From Shewanella frigidimarina (GTDB lineage: Bacteria > Pseudomonadota > Gammaproteobacteria > Enterobacterales > Shewanellaceae): DNA of 64,000 nucleotides. The stretch spans positions 1 to 64,000 of the forward strand of contig NZ_RKKE01000009.1 in NCBI RefSeq assembly GCF_003797125.1. The letters are read 5' to 3'. The notes under the pieces were generated by a model. That model ran no database searches and had not been told where the DNA came from. It saw nothing but the letters and a program-made list of their open reading frames with translations. Every line of letters starts with the position of its first letter. The first letter of the stretch is position 1. The translations under genes and the position numbers were made by a program. Below are positions 10,116-18,860 of this stretch, one piece after another.

Positions 10116-10925
10116 CTAATTAGTTAACAATATATCCCACGGGAGATTTGCACTGCCTACAACAATAAAATTTGGGTTTTCGAGTGTTTCACGCTCATTG
10201 TAGGTCATAGGCTGTAAATTAATATCAATCAGTGCACCGCCTGCTTCTTCAATAATGATCTGCGCAGCACCGGTGTCCCATTCCCCAGTAGGTCCTAAGC
10301 GTACATAGCAATCAGCACGTCCTTCGGCCACTAAACAACTTTTTAATGCTGCACCACCCATCACCACTAACTCACAATGATTAGGTTTATTGAGTAACTT
10401 TAAAACTGATTGCGGATCTTGACGACGACTGACCGCTAAACGTAAATTCTCTGGTTCATCACCGGTTAATTGTTTACTGGTGATACGTATCTCGTTCTTA
10501 CCATCACGCTTATAAGCACCTAGCCCGGCTATTGCGTAATAACACACCTTAGTCATCGGCACATAAACCACTCCCATAATAGGACGGTTATGTTCAACTA
10601 AGGCAATAATCACAGAAAAATCACCACTACCCGCAATAAACTCACCCGTGCCATCTAATGGATCAACTAACCAATAGCGTTTCCATGTTTCACGGACACT
10701 TAATGGAATATCTGCAGCTTCCTCACTTAAAATAGGAATATCAGGCGTTAGCTCCGCTAACTGGCGGCAAATAATATCGTGCGCGGCTAAATCGGCAGAC
10801 GTGACAGGAGTATTGTCGGACTTAATTTCGCGCTTGAAGTTACCTTTAAGGTAAATATCACGAATTTTTTGCCCAGCTTCCGTTGCGATGTCTATAACTT
10901 GCTCAATTACATCTTCTGGCTTCAT
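10116..10925 (-). CDS. cysQ: 3'(2'),5'-bisphosphate nucleotidase
   Basis: It hydrolyses PAP (adenosine 3',5'-bisphosphate), the by-product of sulfate assimilation and acyl-carrier phosphopantetheinylation. This 269-residue inositol-monophosphatase-fold enzyme shows EEAAD, the metal-binding WLVDPLDGTGEF motif, and GEWDTGAAQIIIEEAGG. The ATG at 10925 is chosen because GGAG lies five bases upstream; an upstream in-frame codon at 10964 would add 13 unlikely residues. nudE is next upstream on the same strand, about 115 bp away. Confidence 0.93.
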   Translation of the reverse strand: MKPEDVIEQVIDIATEAGQKIRDIYLKGNFKREIKSDNTPVTSADLAAHDIICRQLAELTPDIPILSEEAADIPLSVRETWKRYWLVDPLDGTGEFIAGSGDFSVIIALVEHNRPIMGVVYVPMTKVCYYAIAGLGAYKRDGKNEIRITSKQLTGDEPENLRLAVSRRQDPQSVLKLLNKPNHCELVVMGGAALKSCLVAEGRADCYVRLGPTGEWDTGAAQIIIEEAGGALIDINLQPMTYNERETLENPNFIVVGSANLPWDILLTN

Positions 10926-11041
10926 TATTACTCCAATTGCTGGATTCGATAAAGATGACCTCACAAGGACATCAATAAATAAGGCTATTGCCTATTCGAT
11001 GTTGCTGTTTAATGACTAACTCAATACCACTAGTGAATAAT

Positions 11042-11629
11042 CTATTTTACGCCGTTGACTTCATTTGTAAGATTATCTGTTGGTTTATTGAGATATTGCT
11101 GAGTTAAAAAAAGCGCACTAACACTACGAGATTCTGAAAAATCAACATTTTCGAGTAATAACTGCCAATCCGATAATGGCCAAGGGATCACGTCTATTGG
11201 CTCAGGCTCATCCCCTTCTAAACGGCTAGGGTACAGTTTTTCAGCGACAAAAATATGCATTTTGCTGGAAAAGTAGCCTGGCGCAAGTGATAACTCTTTT
11301 AGATGAGTCAATTGATAACTGCCAAAACCAATTTCTTCTTGGAGCTCACGATTAGCGGCTTCAACTGCTGTTTCGCCAGGGTCTATCAACCCTTTAGGAA
11401 AACCGAGCTCATAATTATCAGTGCCGGCTGCGTATTCACTAGCTAATAGTAAATTACCTTGATGAATAGGCACAATCATCACAGCACCTCTGCTACCGCC
11501 CTTCATTCTTTCATATTGACGCTCTACGCCATTAGAAAACTTAAGGTGTACCTGCTCGATTTGAAACAGTCTGCTTTTGGCAACAATTTCAGTATGCAGG
11601 ATTTCCGGCTTTTTATGCCGCTGTGTCAT
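11042..11629 (-). CDS. nudE: ADP compounds hydrolase NudE (Nudix)
   Basis: A 195-residue Nudix hydrolase, expected to cleave ADP-ribose, NADH and Ap(n)A. The Nudix box is complete (GLIDPGETAVEAANRELQEE and following residues), and the N-terminal KPEILHTEIVAKSRLF segment is typical of NudE. The ATG at 11629 is chosen because GAGG lies five bases upstream; the frame stays open for 18 more codons. In enterobacteria nudE also lies close to yrfG, hslR and hslO, as here. Confidence 0.92.
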   Translation of the reverse strand: MTQRHKKPEILHTEIVAKSRLFQIEQVHLKFSNGVERQYERMKGGSRGAVMIVPIHQGNLLLASEYAAGTDNYELGFPKGLIDPGETAVEAANRELQEEIGFGSYQLTHLKELSLAPGYFSSKMHIFVAEKLYPSRLEGDEPEPIDVIPWPLSDWQLLLENVDFSESRSVSALFLTQQYLNKPTDNLTNEVNGVK

Positions 11630-11788
11630 TGAAGCCTCGTCAAATGATGTGATGTTCACAAAGGTCAATCTTATACCAAACACAAAAAATATGTGACCTG
11701 TTTTTACCCCTATAAAACGCCTAAAACAGCGATAAAAAGTGATAATACAAGCTAATAACGACTCAAAACAGCGATAGAATTATGACAT

Positions 11789-11856: not shown

Positions 11857-14800
11857 TTAAAACTGATAGCGAAGGTTTAATTGATAACTCAAAATATCGT
11901 TAGGTGCCAAAGCAATATAATCAATGCCCAAACCTGCTGACCAATTGCGAGTAAATTGATAATCTAAATGCATGCCGGTGTACCAATCTGTACCATCAAA
12001 CTTAGTCGTTAACGTTTGCCCTTGAGAGTAACTTTTGACTTCAGACTCCCACACTAACACCCCTACAGGCACGGAAAATCGCCATCCATCATGCTCTACT
12101 AAACTCAAGTCGACACCCACATTGAATCCTGTAGGTAATATTGGCGACACGGATTTGAATAACTCATGATATTGGTCAGTATTTAAACTCTCGCCACTTA
12201 TCTGCGTAGAGCCTTCACCAAAATCGATATATCCAAGCTCAAAAGCAAGTACTGAATTAACTTGATAGCCGATACTGAAGCCAAAGCTCGTATCGGATTT
12301 ATCGAAGGCCTCTATCTGTCCTGTTGGGATTTCCCGCTGTAACTCTGCTTGGGTATTTACGGATTCGCTAAAACCAACAACAGCATCCAAATACCAAGGT
12401 GATACCGAAGATGATCCTTGGGCTTGAACATGGCTCGAGCTGGCCAGCAACACCACTAAACCCAATGATAAAACCTTATAATATTTAAAACCGCTCTCCG
12501 GTTTGAGACGCAGCATTATCACCAACAATAGCAAACCACTCCAAAGCCAGTGCATGCTACCGCCACTTGACTCATTTTCGACCACTTGAGCCTGATAAGC
12601 CTTCACTGTAACCATTACGTTCGCAGTAGCCTCGCCACCTTCACCGTCACTAATGGTATAACTCACGGTATCAACACCTTCAAAACCAGTTATTGGGGTA
12701 TAACGGATTTTGTTGTTTTCAATCATTACGCTACCTTGCTGTGCACTAACTGCAATCACGCTTAATGTTTGATTGTCAGCATCAGTATCATTACTCAACA
12801 CATCCAATATCAATGTGGTTTTATCATCAGTACTGGCCATATCATCCACTGCTATTGGGGCTCTATTCGCCACAACAGTCACGGTTAACTTGCTGCTACC
12901 AGTCCCACCTTTACCATCACTGATGCTATACACCAATACATCTGTCCCAATGAAATCTTCCGCTGGTAAGTAACTTATTTGCTGATTATCCAACACCTCT
13001 GCAGTACCAAACTGGCTAATGACTTGCTTCACCGTCAAGGTATCGCCATCAGCGTCACTGTCGTTCGCCAGCACATCAATTTCAATGCCCTGATTAACTG
13101 GCACTGTAACTGCATCGGCAATCGCAAGGGGCAATGCATTACCGTTGAGCATAACCGCTACCCCACCCGGATCTACTATGGTGCCATTGGCGATACCATC
13201 ATCATCATTCGGACCACCATCTTCTATGGTTAGTTGCACACACCAGTGCCCTTCAGTTAATCCCGCCAGCCATTCAGCAGCGCCTGGTGGAGGACAATAA
13301 CCGGAGTTACCTGCACTAGACATCACTTCGTTGTTGGCGTTGGACACAAAGTCTTGCCAGCTACCGCGTACAAATTTGCGATACACGGCATTTGTGGGGA
13401 CGGGTAATGTTTGAGGAATAACGACTCTCACACTGTCGCCTTGTTTAGGTAAATCCGTGAGTTCAAAATCAAACAGACCACCGAGATTATCCGCTTGTAG
13501 ATCGTCAATTAAATCATCTTCTTGAACTTCGATACCATCACTACCGTTTAGCTGCGCAGTATTACCCAAGCGCAAACAAACTCCTGATTGGCTCTCGGCA
13601 AGGAAAAGCGATTGGTCATTGTTTTGCTCTTGCAGCACGTTACATTCATTAATCGCATCAAGGTAATCCGCAATACCATCATTATCGGTATCAGCAAAAC
13701 CTTCTTGATCATCAGGTATTAAATCACCATCAGAATCATCACCAGTAAGTATTGGTAATGCAGCTTTGACCAGCAAGGTTAATTGCACTGTTGTCGATAA
13801 TTCAGGAATACCATCATCAGTCACTACAACACTAATTGGGTAATTACCCTCATCAAGCTCACTTGGGTCAAAATAACTTCCCTGTTCGTCGCTTTCTAAT
13901 ATCAAGGTACCTGTAGACCAAACCTCCGAGAGATTATCTTGTACATTAGCATCGCGAGTGCGCGCTTTAAGATACACCTTGCCTTCTTGCTTACTCACTT
14001 GACTGCGCAGTTCATCTGATTGCGTCACCTGAATACTGGCCTGCGGAGCAATATTGGCTTCAGTGATTAATAACCGTGTTTCATGTTGTCCACTGAGATT
14101 CAGGCTTGGGTCTAAGCTGATAATCAACTCTTCATCTGCTTCTGTTATGCCATCATCGAACACATTGACGCTAAAGCTTGCGCTTAAACCTGAAGTAATT
14201 TCAAACACACCATCCACTAAGTCATGGTCATTAGCATCGCTACTACCAGACACTGTATAAGGAATACTCACGGGGTACTGCACTGATATGCCATTTAAGT
14301 ACACACTAAATTGCACCTCACCACCTTCCGCAACCACCTGATTTCGACTAATCGAAATCAAAGGATTCACCGTCACTTTTTGAGATTTAATTGAGCTGAG
14401 ACCTTGGCTATCAGTCGCTTGCCAATAGGCTAAGTGTTCGCTTGGTGCAAATAATTGTTGAGTATTGACTAAAGATACCGCCAATTTATTACCCGCTTTA
14501 TCTACTGCTTTAGCAACGCCTAATTTAATATTAGTGAACAACCCGGTCGCATTCGCGGTAATGTCCTCAGGCACGGTAATCACAGGCGCATCCGCAGAGC
14601 CTTCTCCTGTAATAAGCAGCTGGACTTTGGCATTGCTTCTGCCTTTTTGACCATCAGAGATGGTGTAACGCAAGGTTACAGGACCGACAAAATCAGTAGG
14701 TGCTTGATACTTAAGCTGCGACGCCACTACTTGTACACTACCCACATCGGCAGCTGCACCATCAATGATCAAAATATCGCCATCAACGTCGGTATCATTA

Positions 14801-17800
14801 TCAAGTACAGCAATGGTATAACTGCTATCTGTTGATGCACTTTGACTATAACTGTCATCCACAGCCTGAGGTTCATCATTAATTGGATTAACTTTGATAC
14901 TCACCAAACCAGGTTGTGAACTTAGCTCGGCATCTTTGGCAATAAAACTCACGCTATCATCACCATTAAAATCGGCCTCTGGTGTGTATAACCAAACCGA
15001 TCCATGCTTGTCTAACTTACCTGATGTTGGTTGAGTTAAAACCTCAAAACTGAGGACATCGTTTTCAGGATCGGTGGCACTAAAGCTAATACTCAATGAG
15101 CCATCTTCGTCTAATGTGACACTGGTGTCGCTCGCAACCGGAGCACTATTGGTCGCATTAACGTCCAAAGTAAATGCTTGCGTCGCAAATAAACCTGCGG
15201 CATCGGTTACTTTTAATTCAACAGCATGGCTACCAATATTCTCTTTACTAGGCACACCAGTTAAATTACCTGTTGTCGTATTAAGGCTTAACCAAATAGG
15301 TATGTTTACAGCACTATAGGTGAGAGTATCGCCAACGGTATCCACAGCTGTCAGTGTGTAGCTATAACTTGCACCTTGATCAACGTTCAATATTGGACTC
15401 GAATTAATCACTGGAGCACCATTAGGTGTCACGCTGTTAGAGGCACTCGACGCGGCACTAGTGCCCGAAGAGCTTTTAGCCGTGACACTAAAGGTATAAG
15501 CGGTGCCATTGGTTAGCCCCAATACTGTTAATGGTGAGCCTGCACCGCTGGCGGTCAGACTACCTGGGGTTGAGGTCACTGTATAACCCGTAATAGTTGC
15601 ACCACCATTATTCGTTGGAGGCGTAAAACTCACTGTTGCTTGGGTATCTCCGGCTACTGCAGTACCTATACTCGGCACTCCCGCTACGACTGCATTAACA
15701 TCAAACGTCTGACTCACTTGCGCTGCTGCTGAATAAGCCGCATTACCAGCCTGGTTAGCATTAATCGTACAGCTTCCTGTCGTGACAAAACTCAAGGCCC
15801 CGCCACTGCTGATAGTACACACCCCGGAAGTCGATGAGGTAAAGCTTGGTGTTAAGCTTGAGCTGACACTCGCTACCAACGTTGGCATAGTGCCAAAATT
15901 TTGTGCTCCTGGATTAGTAAAAGTAATAGTTTGCAGAGCCTGAGGAATGACACTGTTAGAGCTTACCGAAGCCACACTACTACCAGCAGAATTGGTTGCC
16001 GTGACACTAAAGGTATAGACCGTACCATTAGTCAAGCCTGTTACAATTAATGGAGAAGAAGCACCACTAGCAGTAAAGCCTCCAGGACTAGAGGTAACTG
16101 TATAACCTGTTATCACCGCACCACCATTATTAGTTGGCGCGGTAAAGCTAACACTCGCCTCACCAATACCTGCTACTACAGTACCTATAATAGGCGCATC
16201 CGACACTGTTGCAGCATTACTCACAGTGATACCGTTACCTGTCAAATCAGCGATATTAATCGCAAGATCTGCACCTGTATTCCAGTCTTCTGCTGCTGCA
16301 ATATTATAAGTTACAGCGCCCGTTGAACTAGTACCATTTTTATTGAGACGACTGATTAATTCGTTTTTATCAGTACTATTAAGAGTAACTGAAAAACTAC
16401 TGCCATTGGTAATTTCAACGCTATTTGAAGTTAAGGTATGACTGCTCGCGTCACCCGTGAGGGTGAATTTGGAGATGTCGATATCATTTCCCCCCCCAGT
16501 TTTACTCAACAATCCGCTACCAGTGACCACTAACATCCCGGTACTTACATCATAAGTTGCACTGCTAATGGAAGGCGAAGGGACATTCGATACAGTAACG
16601 CCATTTGAGGCATCTGCAATATTGCCACCAGTGATTTCACTATTCCAATCATCCGCTGCGGCTAAATTGTAAGTCGTGCCGCTAGTGGAGCTATTGCCGT
16701 TTTTATTGAAAATGGTCTCAACCACGCCATAATCAGTGGTATTTAAGGTAACGGAAAATGAACTTGTGCTCGAAGTTTCAACATCAGGAGACGTCAACGT
16801 ATAGGTCGCACCACCTTCAGCGGTAAGGGTTAACAGACTAACGCTAATATCATTGTTAGCGCCAGGCAGGCCAACTAAATTGGTACCTGTGGCGGTGAGT
16901 ATATGGGTACTGCTATCGTAAGTCGCTGAGGTAATGGTAGGTGCACTCACATTACTGACTGTGATGCCATTGCCAGTTAAATCTGCTGGCGAAGATTTTG
17001 TAACATTCCAGTTAGCTGCTGCAGCCAAGTTATAAACGCTTCCGTTAATAGCATCGAAACCGTTTTGATTTAATAAACCATTAATAGCCAGTTTATCAGC
17101 AGCATTTAACGTAACAGAGAAGGCACTTGAGCTACTGGCTGTTACATTAGAGCTAGTCAGGGTATAAGTGTCATCATTGCGACCAGTTAACGTCAGTTTA
17201 CTCACATCAATAGCGTCGCCAGCAGTCATACTAGGCGCTGTAACAGCCAATATTCCAGTATTGGCATCATAGTTAGCACTGGTAATACTCGGGGGAGCGG
17301 TAACAGTAAACACTAAGTTATCAAGACCATTTCTCCAGCCCGAAGCGGAATAGGAATAAGTTAATGATGTAACTCCGACCCAAGTAGAGGGGGTGTGGGT
17401 CGTAACACTTCCCGCAAGCGCGCCGTCGTTATCTGCGATGCTAAAAGCTGTGCCAATATTGGGCGTCAGCACATAATGGTTGCCTGTTGAGTTATTAGTA
17501 AACTCTGCGATTTGAATCGAAGATATGGTGATTGGGACATTAAATGTCACAGTATAAGTATCGGAACCGCCCATGACGCCTGGGTCTAGAAAGCCTGAGG
17601 ATACACCATTGAGATTACCGCCATCGGAACGTGTGGCCGTCAAAGTCGTAGTGCCATCATCGGCGGTTGTCATTACTGTCGGAGTTCCTCCGCCTGTGTA
17701 TATTGACATAGTGAATTTAGCAGCCAAAAGCTGATTAGAGCAAAGAAACAATGGCAAGATAAGCAGCCACCGAGAAAATAATGTAAATTGGTATTGTCTC

Positions 17801-17874
17801 TTCTCTACAACCCTGTTTTTTCTATTGGTCGACGGAAAAAGCGACCAATAAAAGTTTTTTTGTAGAATATTCAT
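11857..17874 (-). CDS. 2005-residue multidomain surface protein with GlyGly-CTERM-like signal and C-terminal outer-membrane barrel
   Basis: Start ATG 17874 has AAGGGA five bases upstream. Domains in order: N-terminal signal (hydrophobic 37-52, cut near LLAA); a beta-rich domain 55-190; three tandem modules of about 115 residues (195-309, 312-431, 434-555); two fibronectin-III-like domains flanking an MBG-like Ig; a putative-Ig; two cadherin-like/tandem-95 repeats; a HYR-like segment; Calx-beta; Asp-rich calcium motifs (DSDGD, DTDNDG); a domain like 'choice-of-anchor U' (GPNDDDGIANGTIVDPGG); two more cadherin-like repeats. Then comes SSGGS plus a hydrophobic segment and basic residues (1769-1792), like a GlyGly-CTERM sorting signal. 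The frame continues through a second signal-like segment ending HVQAQ into a barrel of about 185 residues ending in Phe. Likely a secreted adhesin or scaffold. The function is unknown and it may be two genes fused. Confidence 0.85.
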   Translation of the reverse strand: MNILQKNFYWSLFPSTNRKNRVVEKRQYQFTLFSRWLLILPLFLCSNQLLAAKFTMSIYTGGGTPTVMTTADDGTTTLTATRSDGGNLNGVSSGFLDPGVMGGSDTYTVTFNVPITISSIQIAEFTNNSTGNHYVLTPNIGTAFSIADNDGALAGSVTTHTPSTWVGVTSLTYSYSASGWRNGLDNLVFTVTAPPSITSANYDANTGILAVTAPSMTAGDAIDVSKLTLTGRNDDTYTLTSSNVTASSSSAFSVTLNAADKLAINGLLNQNGFDAINGSVYNLAAAANWNVTKSSPADLTGNGITVSNVSAPTITSATYDSSTHILTATGTNLVGLPGANNDISVSLLTLTAEGGATYTLTSPDVETSSTSSFSVTLNTTDYGVVETIFNKNGNSSTSGTTYNLAAADDWNSEITGGNIADASNGVTVSNVPSPSISSATYDVSTGMLVVTGSGLLSKTGGGNDIDISKFTLTGDASSHTLTSNSVEITNGSSFSVTLNSTDKNELISRLNKNGTSSTGAVTYNIAAAEDWNTGADLAINIADLTGNGITVSNAATVSDAPIIGTVVAGIGEASVSFTAPTNNGGAVITGYTVTSSPGGFTASGASSPLIVTGLTNGTVYTFSVTATNSAGSSVASVSSNSVIPQALQTITFTNPGAQNFGTMPTLVASVSSSLTPSFTSSTSGVCTISSGGALSFVTTGSCTINANQAGNAAYSAAAQVSQTFDVNAVVAGVPSIGTAVAGDTQATVSFTPPTNNGGATITGYTVTSTPGSLTASGAGSPLTVLGLTNGTAYTFSVTAKSSSGTSAASSASNSVTPNGAPVINSSPILNVDQGASYSYTLTAVDTVGDTLTYSAVNIPIWLSLNTTTGNLTGVPSKENIGSHAVELKVTDAAGLFATQAFTLDVNATNSAPVASDTSVTLDEDGSLSISFSATDPENDVLSFEVLTQPTSGKLDKHGSVWLYTPEADFNGDDSVSFIAKDAELSSQPGLVSIKVNPINDEPQAVDDSYSQSASTDSSYTIAVLDNDTDVDGDILIIDGAAADVGSVQVVASQLKYQAPTDFVGPVTLRYTISDGQKGRSNAKVQLLITGEGSADAPVITVPEDITANATGLFTNIKLGVAKAVDKAGNKLAVSLVNTQQLFAPSEHLAYWQATDSQGLSSIKSQKVTVNPLISISRNQVVAEGGEVQFSVYLNGISVQYPVSIPYTVSGSSDANDHDLVDGVFEITSGLSASFSVNVFDDGITEADEELIISLDPSLNLSGQHETRLLITEANIAPQASIQVTQSDELRSQVSKQEGKVYLKARTRDANVQDNLSEVWSTGTLILESDEQGSYFDPSELDEGNYPISVVVTDDGIPELSTTVQLTLLVKAALPILTGDDSDGDLIPDDQEGFADTDNDGIADYLDAINECNVLQEQNNDQSLFLAESQSGVCLRLGNTAQLNGSDGIEVQEDDLIDDLQADNLGGLFDFELTDLPKQGDSVRVVIPQTLPVPTNAVYRKFVRGSWQDFVSNANNEVMSSAGNSGYCPPPGAAEWLAGLTEGHWCVQLTIEDGGPNDDDGIANGTIVDPGGVAVMLNGNALPLAIADAVTVPVNQGIEIDVLANDSDADGDTLTVKQVISQFGTAEVLDNQQISYLPAEDFIGTDVLVYSISDGKGGTGSSKLTVTVVANRAPIAVDDMASTDDKTTLILDVLSNDTDADNQTLSVIAVSAQQGSVMIENNKIRYTPITGFEGVDTVSYTISDGEGGEATANVMVTVKAYQAQVVENESSGGSMHWLWSGLLLLVIMLRLKPESGFKYYKVLSLGLVVLLASSSHVQAQGSSSVSPWYLDAVVGFSESVNTQAELQREIPTGQIEAFDKSDTSFGFSIGYQVNSVLAFELGYIDFGEGSTQISGESLNTDQYHELFKSVSPILPTGFNVGVDLSLVEHDGWRFSVPVGVLVWESEVKSYSQGQTLTTKFDGTDWYTGMHLDYQFTRNWSAGLGIDYIALAPNDILSYQLNLRYQF
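12418..12564 (-). other. junction: GlyGly-CTERM-like segment followed by signal-peptide-like segment
   Basis: The codons read GGS, then WLWSGLLLLVIML, then RLKPESGFKYYK, then VLSLGLVVLLASSSHVQA and Q. The first part fits a rhombosortase substrate tail (Gly-rich, membrane helix, basic end); the second fits a signal peptide with cleavage after A-Q-A type residues. An internal ATG (12514-12516) preceded by GGTGATA could start a separate barrel protein of about 219 residues. There is no stop codon between the two parts. Confidence 0.7.
16210..17292 (-). repeat. three tandem ~115-residue modules in the giant protein
   Basis: Each module begins P(S/T)I(T/S)SA(N/T)YD and carries a TLTLTG-like strand, SxSSFSVTLN, an (L/F)NKNG-type turn, YNLAAAxDWN and ends GITVSN or GVTVSN. 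The modules are clearly homologous but diverged, so the duplication is not recent. Confidence 0.8.
16490..16497 (-). repeat. G8 homopolymer inside the giant gene
   Basis: The coding strand carries eight consecutive G (codons GGG GGG GGA within TGGGND of the third module). The aligned positions of the other two modules have no such run. A one-base change would frameshift the protein after about residue 462. Confidence 0.85.
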
Positions 17875-17880
17875 TTGCAT

Positions 17881-18366
17881 CCCTTAAACTTAGATTGATT
17901 ATTATTTATAAAGTAATACAGCTTTTACTACACACGCCTTGTATTTTTTATTGAAACACGATTGGCGACAACCAACATAACTACATGATTGTAAATATTA
18001 AAAATTAAATATTACTTTATTAAAACTTATGATGGAGTCACGCTATTAAGTAAAAAGTGTTCAATGACTCCTTAGAGTATTTATGATTAAGCTAATTAAC
18101 CTTGACTGTTTTAAACGTCATAACTTCTGAAACCAAGCGTAAAAATAGAGACCTAGAGTTATCGATAATGAGTCCCTTGCAATTTACTACCTACCACCAG
18201 TAAAAAAATACAATGAGACGAGTGATACAATTGTAGTAAAAAAAACAACATTGTAACCTTTAGGTAACAGGAATATACATTAGAATATGCTTATCATAAA
18301 GTAGACCAACATCAAAAAACCTTCTTTTAATCTTCTACCTTTCAATCTTATTCTCAATATCAATCA
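17881..18366. other. AT-rich intergenic region upstream of the giant gene
   Basis: About 490 bp without a convincing coding frame. It presumably holds the promoter of the giant gene, but I see no clear -35/-10 pair. A weak inverted repeat GGAGTCA/TGACTCC (18034-18040 and 18065-18071) has no T run and no assigned role. Confidence 0.5.
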
Positions 18367-18394
18367 CATACATACATACATACATACATACATA
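18367..18394. repeat. tetranucleotide microsatellite (CATA)7
   Basis: Seven perfect copies of CATA, with a further CA before them. They lie six bases beyond the stop codon of the broken GNAT gene and about 490 bp upstream of the giant gene. Confidence 0.95.
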
Positions 18395-18400
18395 ATTGCA

Positions 18401-18860
18401 CTACATACTTCCATGAGTGTCTGACACGCCTATAAGATTAAATCCTTGTCGAAGGTAAAGCGCTTTTGCTCTTGGATTGTCTAGCGCGACAGACAAGCAA
18501 ATAGGGACCTGCCGTACCTTGGTATCATATTTAAGCGCTTCTAAAACCGCTGAACAAATGCCTTTACTGCGCGCCTCTGGAGCGCAAACCAAATCAACAA
18601 GGTGCAAACATTCTGGATTAATCGCTAAGGCCTGCTTGGCGGCATAGAATATAATCCCTTGAACTAGGAAACTGGCTTTTATAGGACATTTGTTGCAGTT
18701 GATATTGCTGCTGCAATATCAGATCCACTGCTGTTTGGGGTAAACCAAGCTGATTGAAATCGCTGCGAGTAGCATGAAACAGCTCTGCCATGATAAATAC
18801 GTCATCATCACTAGCTGGGCGTACACTGAAATTCAATAGCGGGTTTAGCTGATTTAACAT
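18401..18860 (-). pseudogene. GNAT-family acetyltransferase, frameshifted
   Basis: The N-terminal part (18860 down to 18618, ATG start, NFSVRPASDDDVFIMAELF) and the C-terminal part (to 18401; HLVDLVCAPEARSKGICSAVLEAL, then NPRAKALYLRQGFNLIG) are two halves of one GNAT acetyltransferase in different frames. The acetyl-CoA loop is readable as RSKGIC. The frame is lost around 18617-18645, where the first half runs into TAA. The joined product would be about 150 residues, slightly short, which suggests a small deletion. A sequencing error is the main alternative. Confidence 0.75.

Follow-up and report, generated by a model that had tools for sequence, protein, structure and literature searches.

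The window analysed here, a 64,000-nt stretch of the Shewanella frigidimarina contig NZ_RKKE01000009.1, carries on its minus strand a single unbroken open reading frame of 2007 amino acids (17880-11857) in which a giant repeat-bearing protein continues in frame into a barrel. An earlier note on this DNA, which gave no strand, had described a GlyGly-CTERM-like sorting signal running into a barrel with no stop codon between them, and this description was borne out: SSGGS, a hydrophobic helix, the basic residues RLK, a signal-like segment ending in HVQA and a barrel ending in Phe are all present in that order. The junction sequence is SSGGSMHWLWSGLLLLVIMLRLKPESGFKYYKVLSLGLVVLLASSSHVQA, followed by the 187-aa barrel. 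Domain models place fn3, He_PIG, several Big_9/cadherin-like repeats and tandem-95 repeats in the giant half. The parts of the frame are as follows.

11857..17880, minus strand: whole fused ORF of 2007 aa, comprising an Ig/cadherin-like surface protein, a GlyGly-CTERM signal, an internal signal peptide and an OmpA-type barrel
17719..17880, minus strand: probable N-terminal signal peptide of the giant half, ...LFSRWLLILPLFLCSNQLLAA, read by eye from a putative start codon
13153..13479, minus strand: choice-of-anchor U domain (NF041766, aa 1468-1576; 52.2 bits, cut-off 32)
12586..13143, minus strand: last tandem-95/Big_9/cadherin-like repeats ahead of the junction, outer limits approximate
12502..12567, minus strand: internal GlyGly-CTERM signal matching TIGR03501 (SGGS, helix 1 and RLK)
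12564-12559, minus strand: Gly-Gly; rhombosortase is predicted, from the example of VesB, to cut behind the second Gly (12559/12558)
12555-12511, minus strand: helix 1, hydrophobic
12516-12514, minus strand: internal in-frame ATG with GGTGATA directly ahead, kept in L040-L042 and absent from most fused relatives
12475..12510, minus strand: short basic loop RLKPESGFKYYK between the hydrophobic segments, predicted to be cytoplasmic
12421..12474, minus strand: second hydrophobic segment, signal-peptide-like and ending in V-Q-A, with a predicted signal peptidase I cut at 12421/12420
11860..12420, minus strand: eight-stranded OmpA-type β-barrel of 187 aa (PF13505), ending in ...LRYQF and then TAA

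Downstream of the barrel, nudE and cysQ lie on the same strand (window positions 10116-11683), a placement common to loci L040, L041, L044, L047-L051, L054, L056 and L079. The region directly upstream of the giant gene (17881-18700) holds what appears by eye to be a C-terminal fragment of an acetyltransferase-like gene; at the matching place, L041 has a longer acetyltransferase-like ORF together with a collar-type gene. Genes related to the phage-tail-collar-domain genes of L050 (PF07484; L050:63-1755) occur upstream of the giant gene in 19 of the 39 fused loci that include the ORF start and at least 500 nt of upstream sequence, a sample in which upstream length varies and absence is uncertain in several loci. 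The collar-type gene is mostly directly upstream of the giant gene, and it is found in this position outside the genus as well (L133 and L154).

The available text of the 2011 GlyGly-CTERM paper (PMC3237569) places this signal at the extreme C-terminus, where it ends the protein, and a study of VesB from V. cholerae (PMC6219818) describes cleavage after the second Gly and attachment of glycerophosphoethanolamine. Six places in the window's genome score above the TIGR03501 cut-off; at the other five, the protein stops a few residues later, and here 214 residues follow in frame after the matched stretch. The tripartite motif of a Gly-rich stretch, a helix and basic residues is recognised narrowly by score: 17.7 bits in a search of the whole genome (cut-off 15.5) and 15.1 bits, under the cut-off, with an E-value of 0.03 in a 105-aa context. 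TIGR03501 is a short model that matches in 11 of 14 control genomes, in one of them above the cut-off. As the window's own match is weak, the case rests on its relatives.

Among 69 fused junctions, TIGR03501 matches 52 at a lenient E-value of 10 or below (best E 1.9e-5), more than any other family at this threshold (tandem-95 is second, with 48), and the remaining 17 have no match even at E 10; at the same threshold it matches 12 of 13 split tails. Two glycines and one arginine (G66, G67 and R84 in the numbering of the first sequence) are at least 90% conserved in the alignment of the 69 junctions, and most other columns vary. A loose pattern recovered the motif in 67 of the 68 fused sequences of at least 85 bits, with L147 mis-parsed and the motif of L180 lying further upstream. 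At least five of these 68 sequences (L074, L159, L176, L179 and L181) have SG-x instead of Gly-Gly right ahead of the helix, and SG-x forms are likewise present in the split tails of L149, L156 and L158.

A second hydrophobic segment with positive residues ahead of it follows the GlyGly helix in the fused sequences examined, with the exception of L161 (L161:6405-6719), where the GlyGly helix is present and no clear second segment lies ahead of the barrel. After this segment, 63 of 65 fused sequences have an [AVST]xA site, whereas 200 shuffles of the search window average 39.7 and reach 51 at most; the sites were called by a home-made sequence rule that by construction always returns its best candidate, which in a few sequences (e.g., L144 and L150) wrongly falls within the barrel. 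The features of a signal peptidase I substrate (basic n-region, hydrophobic core and small residues at -3 and -1) are recognised by this home-made rule only, and the HVQA of the window was read by eye. Both these counts and the start-codon counts given below omit L147 (motif mis-parsed), L161 (no second segment) and L180, a fused locus with several tandem repeat copies between the internal signal peptide and the barrel. In L050, the putative N-terminus of the mature barrel is TDWYIEGFIGQAK, after AQA. A structural model of the window's junction together with the barrel has helices at residues 16-33 and 40-57 ahead of the barrel, with low confidence in that region.

For the mature 187 residues, aligned with eleven relatives, AlphaFold2 predicted eight long strands with a mean pLDDT of 91.1, the first of which starts 8 residues past the predicted cut in the window. 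In the PDB, the transmembrane domains of OmpA match best (9fzc, E 3.5e-9, and 9fzd; TM 0.70-0.78, 17-19% identity), and the barrel matches PF13505 with 42.6 bits (cut-off 28.7). The model, the best match and the family assignment together place the domain among closed eight-stranded barrels of OmpA type, which agrees with the barrel-like domain ending in Phe that the earlier note had recognised. Some barrel halves exceed a barrel: L073 and L075 have OmpA C-terminal-type sequence behind it (by eye), L145, L147 and L173 have extra length, and tandem-95-like domains lie ahead of the barrel in L213 (by model) and L227 (by eye). The barrel half of L213 is a separate protein with its own signal peptide.

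A search profile built from 33 barrels gave 62 matches of at least 150 bits in 51 of 129 genomes of the genus (counted by row). Reading of the junctions assigned 55 of these as fused in one frame to a GlyGly-CTERM-like segment, six as split and one, in G078, as solo; the 55 include one passenger broken by frameshifts further upstream (G122, L041) and one truncated by a contig end (G096). All six split genes lie right behind a GlyGly-CTERM-type gene (two each in G022 and G002, one each in G065 and G117). Across the order, in a sample of 394 genomes that includes 29 from the genus, 125 genomes have a match at an E-value of 1e-12 or better, many of these being plain OmpA-like frames of 350-420 aa. 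Outside the genus, 27 of 40 examined loci are fused, from 23 genomes that include members of other families, and 30 non-genus genomes carry the module when fused genes and split pairs are taken together. In the class, 32 of 369 genomes match at 1e-20, the window's genome included; nine of 20 examined loci are fused with a GlyGly-like segment inside (L214-L220, L222 and L227), and in L230 the two genes are separate and overlap by 4 nt. Passengers differ among fused loci, and of the five fused class loci searched, L220 and L222 had no match to choice-of-anchor U or tandem-95 at E 0.01. Among the matches listed, those below 85 bits that were examined (L171, L172 and L183-L187, and in addition the frames of 350-420 aa) resemble common stand-alone proteins of OmpA-like or small-barrel type.

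Where the halves are split, the stop codon of the GlyGly-CTERM-type gene lies between -7 and +22 nt from the barrel start in 12 of 14 cases. The distance to the barrel ATG is -4 nt in six cases, which is an ATGA overlap, -7 in one, -1 in two, and +1, +7 and +22 nt once each; it is +216 nt in L168 and ambiguous in L162, where several ATGs are possible. One genome has two tandem copies of the split pair (L059), and their barrel parts in the tree are identical. The earlier note had proposed comparing orthologues for a stop codon between the two parts; the junctions prove mostly stop-free (55 of 62 genus matches), and a stop separates the halves in the split versions. Its suggestion that two adjacent genes became fused through a lost stop therefore survives as history, in view of the split versions and the six 4-nt overlaps, but not as a recent event, given the 55 of 62 genus matches that are fused. 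A recent lost stop or a sequencing error is ruled out by the retention of the fusion across the genus and beyond.

Fused and split forms were mapped on a tree of 86 barrels and 182 alignment columns (68 fused, 14 split, three solo and one at a contig edge). This tree needs seven changes between fused and split states, and its well-supported branches alone force five changes of the fused label and four of the split label; it was made by a quick method and has several long branches, which leaves the number of changes unsure, and the direction of change was not inferred. Matches below 85 bits were omitted, among them L170 (78.7 bits), which looks fused; the partial barrel of L078 was dropped for fill, and L139, at a contig edge, was scored as neither fused nor split. 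Summed over pairs, dN/dS at the junction is 0.22 in the window's clade (four sequences), 0.10 in a set of 11 sequences and 0.23 in a set of six; it is 0.07-0.11 in the barrel and 0.06-0.07 in the stretch ahead of the motif, all of these being rough values as synonymous differences are large. Among these three stretches, conservation is lowest at the junction. The low ratios nevertheless show that the junction is translated in the fused frame and is under purifying selection.

The earlier note had also proposed looking for a rhombosortase gene, and the window's genome has one (TIGR03902, 185.3 bits, cut-off 84). Within the genus, 128 of 129 genomes have a rhombosortase above the cut-off, the exception being 52% complete; 232 of 394 genomes of the order sample have one, and none of 14 control genomes does. 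Outside the genus, 28 of the 30 genomes in which the module was verified have it, versus 175 of 335 others (Fisher p 4e-6, status called by E-value); the others are genomes with no verified module rather than with proven absence of one. The p-value ignores shared ancestry and is not a clean probability, and the absence of the module from lineages that have no rhombosortase may have other causes. The two module genomes without rhombosortase above the cut-off are G227 (99% complete) and G284 (80% complete).

One explanation for these results, which we favor with a rough probability of 0.68, is that the frame encodes a secretory polyprotein that would be cut by rhombosortase and signal peptidase I to give a surface protein and a partner barrel. 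The N-terminal signal peptide would route the giant Ig-repeat half through Sec, helix 1 of the GlyGly-CTERM would stop transfer, and the second, signal-peptide-like segment would restart it and bring the barrel into the periplasm. Under the positive-inside rule, RLK would stay on the cytoplasmic side of helix 1, and the second segment would send the chain outward again. Signal peptidase I, cutting after VQA, would free the barrel for outer-membrane assembly; rhombosortase, cutting after GlyGly, would create a new C-terminus with a glycerophosphoethanolamine-type anchor, and the giant protein would reach the surface by type II secretion. A surface protein and a partner barrel would thus be made 1:1 from a single ORF. 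The two cuts, the membrane topology, the lipid tag, export by the type II system and the joint working of the two products are all inferences.

The foundation of this polyprotein reading is an unbroken and conserved frame under purifying selection, the existence of split counterparts, repeated switching between fused and split forms, recurring motifs, the predicted barrel fold and a rhombosortase in the genome. Processing of the fused chain into two proteins is argued for most strongly by the existence of the pair elsewhere as overlapping genes. In addition, as the first strand begins so soon after the predicted cut, the uncut chain would be too short to bridge the inner and outer membranes; with almost no linker, the barrel would arrive in the outer membrane only after at least a signal-peptidase-like cut. 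The frame, the selection on it and the split homologs support a putative bacterial polyprotein with two predicted products. Several observations count against this reading: the marginal TIGR03501 score of the window, the 17 of 69 fused junctions with no match, the SG-x forms, the lower conservation of the junction, the missing second segment of L161, the two module genomes with no rhombosortase above the cut-off, the enrichment at the junction of start codons with an SD-like (Shine-Dalgarno-like) match, and the misplaced calls of the cleavage-site rule. One may postulate more broadly, at somewhat less than even odds, a general and evolutionarily reversible polyprotein that supplies a lipid-anchored giant adhesin and a dedicated barrel 1:1, in which two membrane proteases act on a helical hairpin, switching between polyprotein and overlapping pair recurs as both yield the same products, and the barrel serves as the surface receptor or dock of the giant.

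One alternative is that translation starts within the loop (here at ATG 12516-12514) and yields a separate pre-barrel, the fused product being minor or unprocessed. The internal ATG and the GGTGATA upstream of it are both present as the earlier note described, and the window's three closest relatives (L040-L042) have an ATG with a Shine-Dalgarno (SD)-like match of 4, the window itself being unscored; however, only ~2 nt separate the GGTGA of the window from the ATG, a short spacing for a ribosome-binding site. An in-frame ATG lies in the usable stretch of 27 of 65 fused sequences (12.4% in random windows of the same ORFs), and an ATG with an SD-like match of at least 4 in 11 of 65, several of them near-copies of each other (3.8% in random windows). 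When GTG and TTG are admitted, the counts are 52 of 65 for any start (56.2% in random windows) and 23 of 65 for a start with such a match (19.7%). Hydrophobic stretches rich in Met and Leu may give this enrichment anyway. Against the alternative, 13 of 65 fused genes offer no ATG, GTG or TTG in the usable loop, and an ATG accompanied by an SD-like match of at least 4 is missing from 54 of 65; among the split barrels, by contrast, such a match precedes the start in 11 of 13. General internal initiation is unsupported, as starts are absent or weak in most fused genes; the idea of a separately started barrel accordingly fails as a rule, but internal starts may add a product in some clades, that of the window included. 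We regard dual coding as improbable overall, and marginally less probable than a version of processing in which only the signal-peptidase-like cut is made, with the barrel freed, the giant half held in the inner membrane by helix 1 or cut by another rhomboid, and GlyGly left as a relic.

This single-cut alternative, also improbable, would account for the weak TIGR03501 score in the window and for the SG-x forms, and it gains from the hairpin partner of the fused helices, which free GlyGly-CTERM tails are without, and from a report of two rhomboid proteases that cleave VesB in V. cholerae (PMC11389362). It is at odds with the conservation of the two glycines among otherwise mostly variable columns, with the C-terminal GlyGly-CTERM-type tails of split relatives, and with the enrichment of rhombosortase in module genomes. 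We consider it very unlikely that the halves stay joined, an arrangement in which the barrel would serve as the outer-membrane anchor of the passenger and the hydrophobic segments would be tolerated. The single ORF would suit such an arrangement, as would the further domains in the barrel half of some relatives (tandem-95-like in L213 and L227), but the second hydrophobic segment and its preceding positive residues recur in the fused sequences examined (L161 excepted), an AxA-type site stands just ahead of the barrel, and the pair also exists as two genes. The new architecture with an internal sorting signal that the earlier note envisaged is therefore upheld as an architecture, but with cleavage more likely than display on the barrel, because a signal-peptidase-like site separates the second segment from the barrel. 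An accidental fusion or assembly artefact in this genome, which might be suspected as GlyGly-CTERM signals normally end proteins according to the available text of the 2011 paper (PMC3237569), is scarcely credible: the fusion recurs across many genomes that were assembled independently, that of Shewanella sp. ANA-3 (NC_008577.1) among them, and dN/dS is far below 1 across the junction. Conservation already refutes this explanation.

Searches for C-terminal sorting signals, and the current understanding of them, treat these signals as the ends of proteins. If the internal signal works, two envelope proteins in one ORF would escape annotation, rhombosortase would not need to see a free C-terminus, and there would be a simple genetic route to a stoichiometric secreted protein and outer-membrane partner. 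The natural fused and split versions are a ready-made experiment on processing. For one class of surface proteins with GlyGly-CTERM signals, the barrel is a candidate partner, and if it is the dock of the lipid-tagged giant, this would be relevant to the retention of GlyGly-CTERM proteins at the cell surface. In the portion of the open-licence PMC literature accessible to us, we found no published account of a GlyGly-CTERM/barrel fusion; the available text of the 2011 paper (PMC3237569) has no mention of barrel, fusion, internal, polyprotein or frameshift, and that of a 2026 paper (PMC13393428) none of barrel or internal.

Relative to known systems, the polyprotein that we favor shares Gly-Gly, a hydrophobic helix, basic residues and a genome-encoded rhombosortase with GlyGly-CTERM/rhombosortase sorting (TIGR03501/TIGR03902; VesB), but here the signal is internal and is followed in frame by a second signal peptide and an outer-membrane barrel. 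Predicted fold, size and C-terminal Phe liken the barrel to the eight-stranded OmpA type (PF13505, PF01389), unlike which it is the C-terminal part of a giant secreted protein or the product of an overlapping neighbor gene. In type V autotransporters, the passenger is covalently continuous with the secretion barrel, with no membrane-helix signal between. Classical and inverse autotransporters (types Va and Ve) similarly combine a large repeat passenger and a barrel in one ORF; here, by contrast, the barrel is small and OmpA-like, and two hydrophobic segments of inner-membrane type and a signal-peptidase-like (AxA-type) site separate it from the passenger, which sets the locus apart from type V. 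FbcH of Bradyrhizobium is a cytochrome b/c1 polyprotein cut at an internal signal sequence. Like FbcH, the frame described here is one bacterial ORF for two envelope proteins with a cut, in this case predicted, at an internal signal peptide; unlike FbcH, its upstream protein ends in a dedicated C-terminal sorting signal, and its products are predicted for the surface and the outer membrane.
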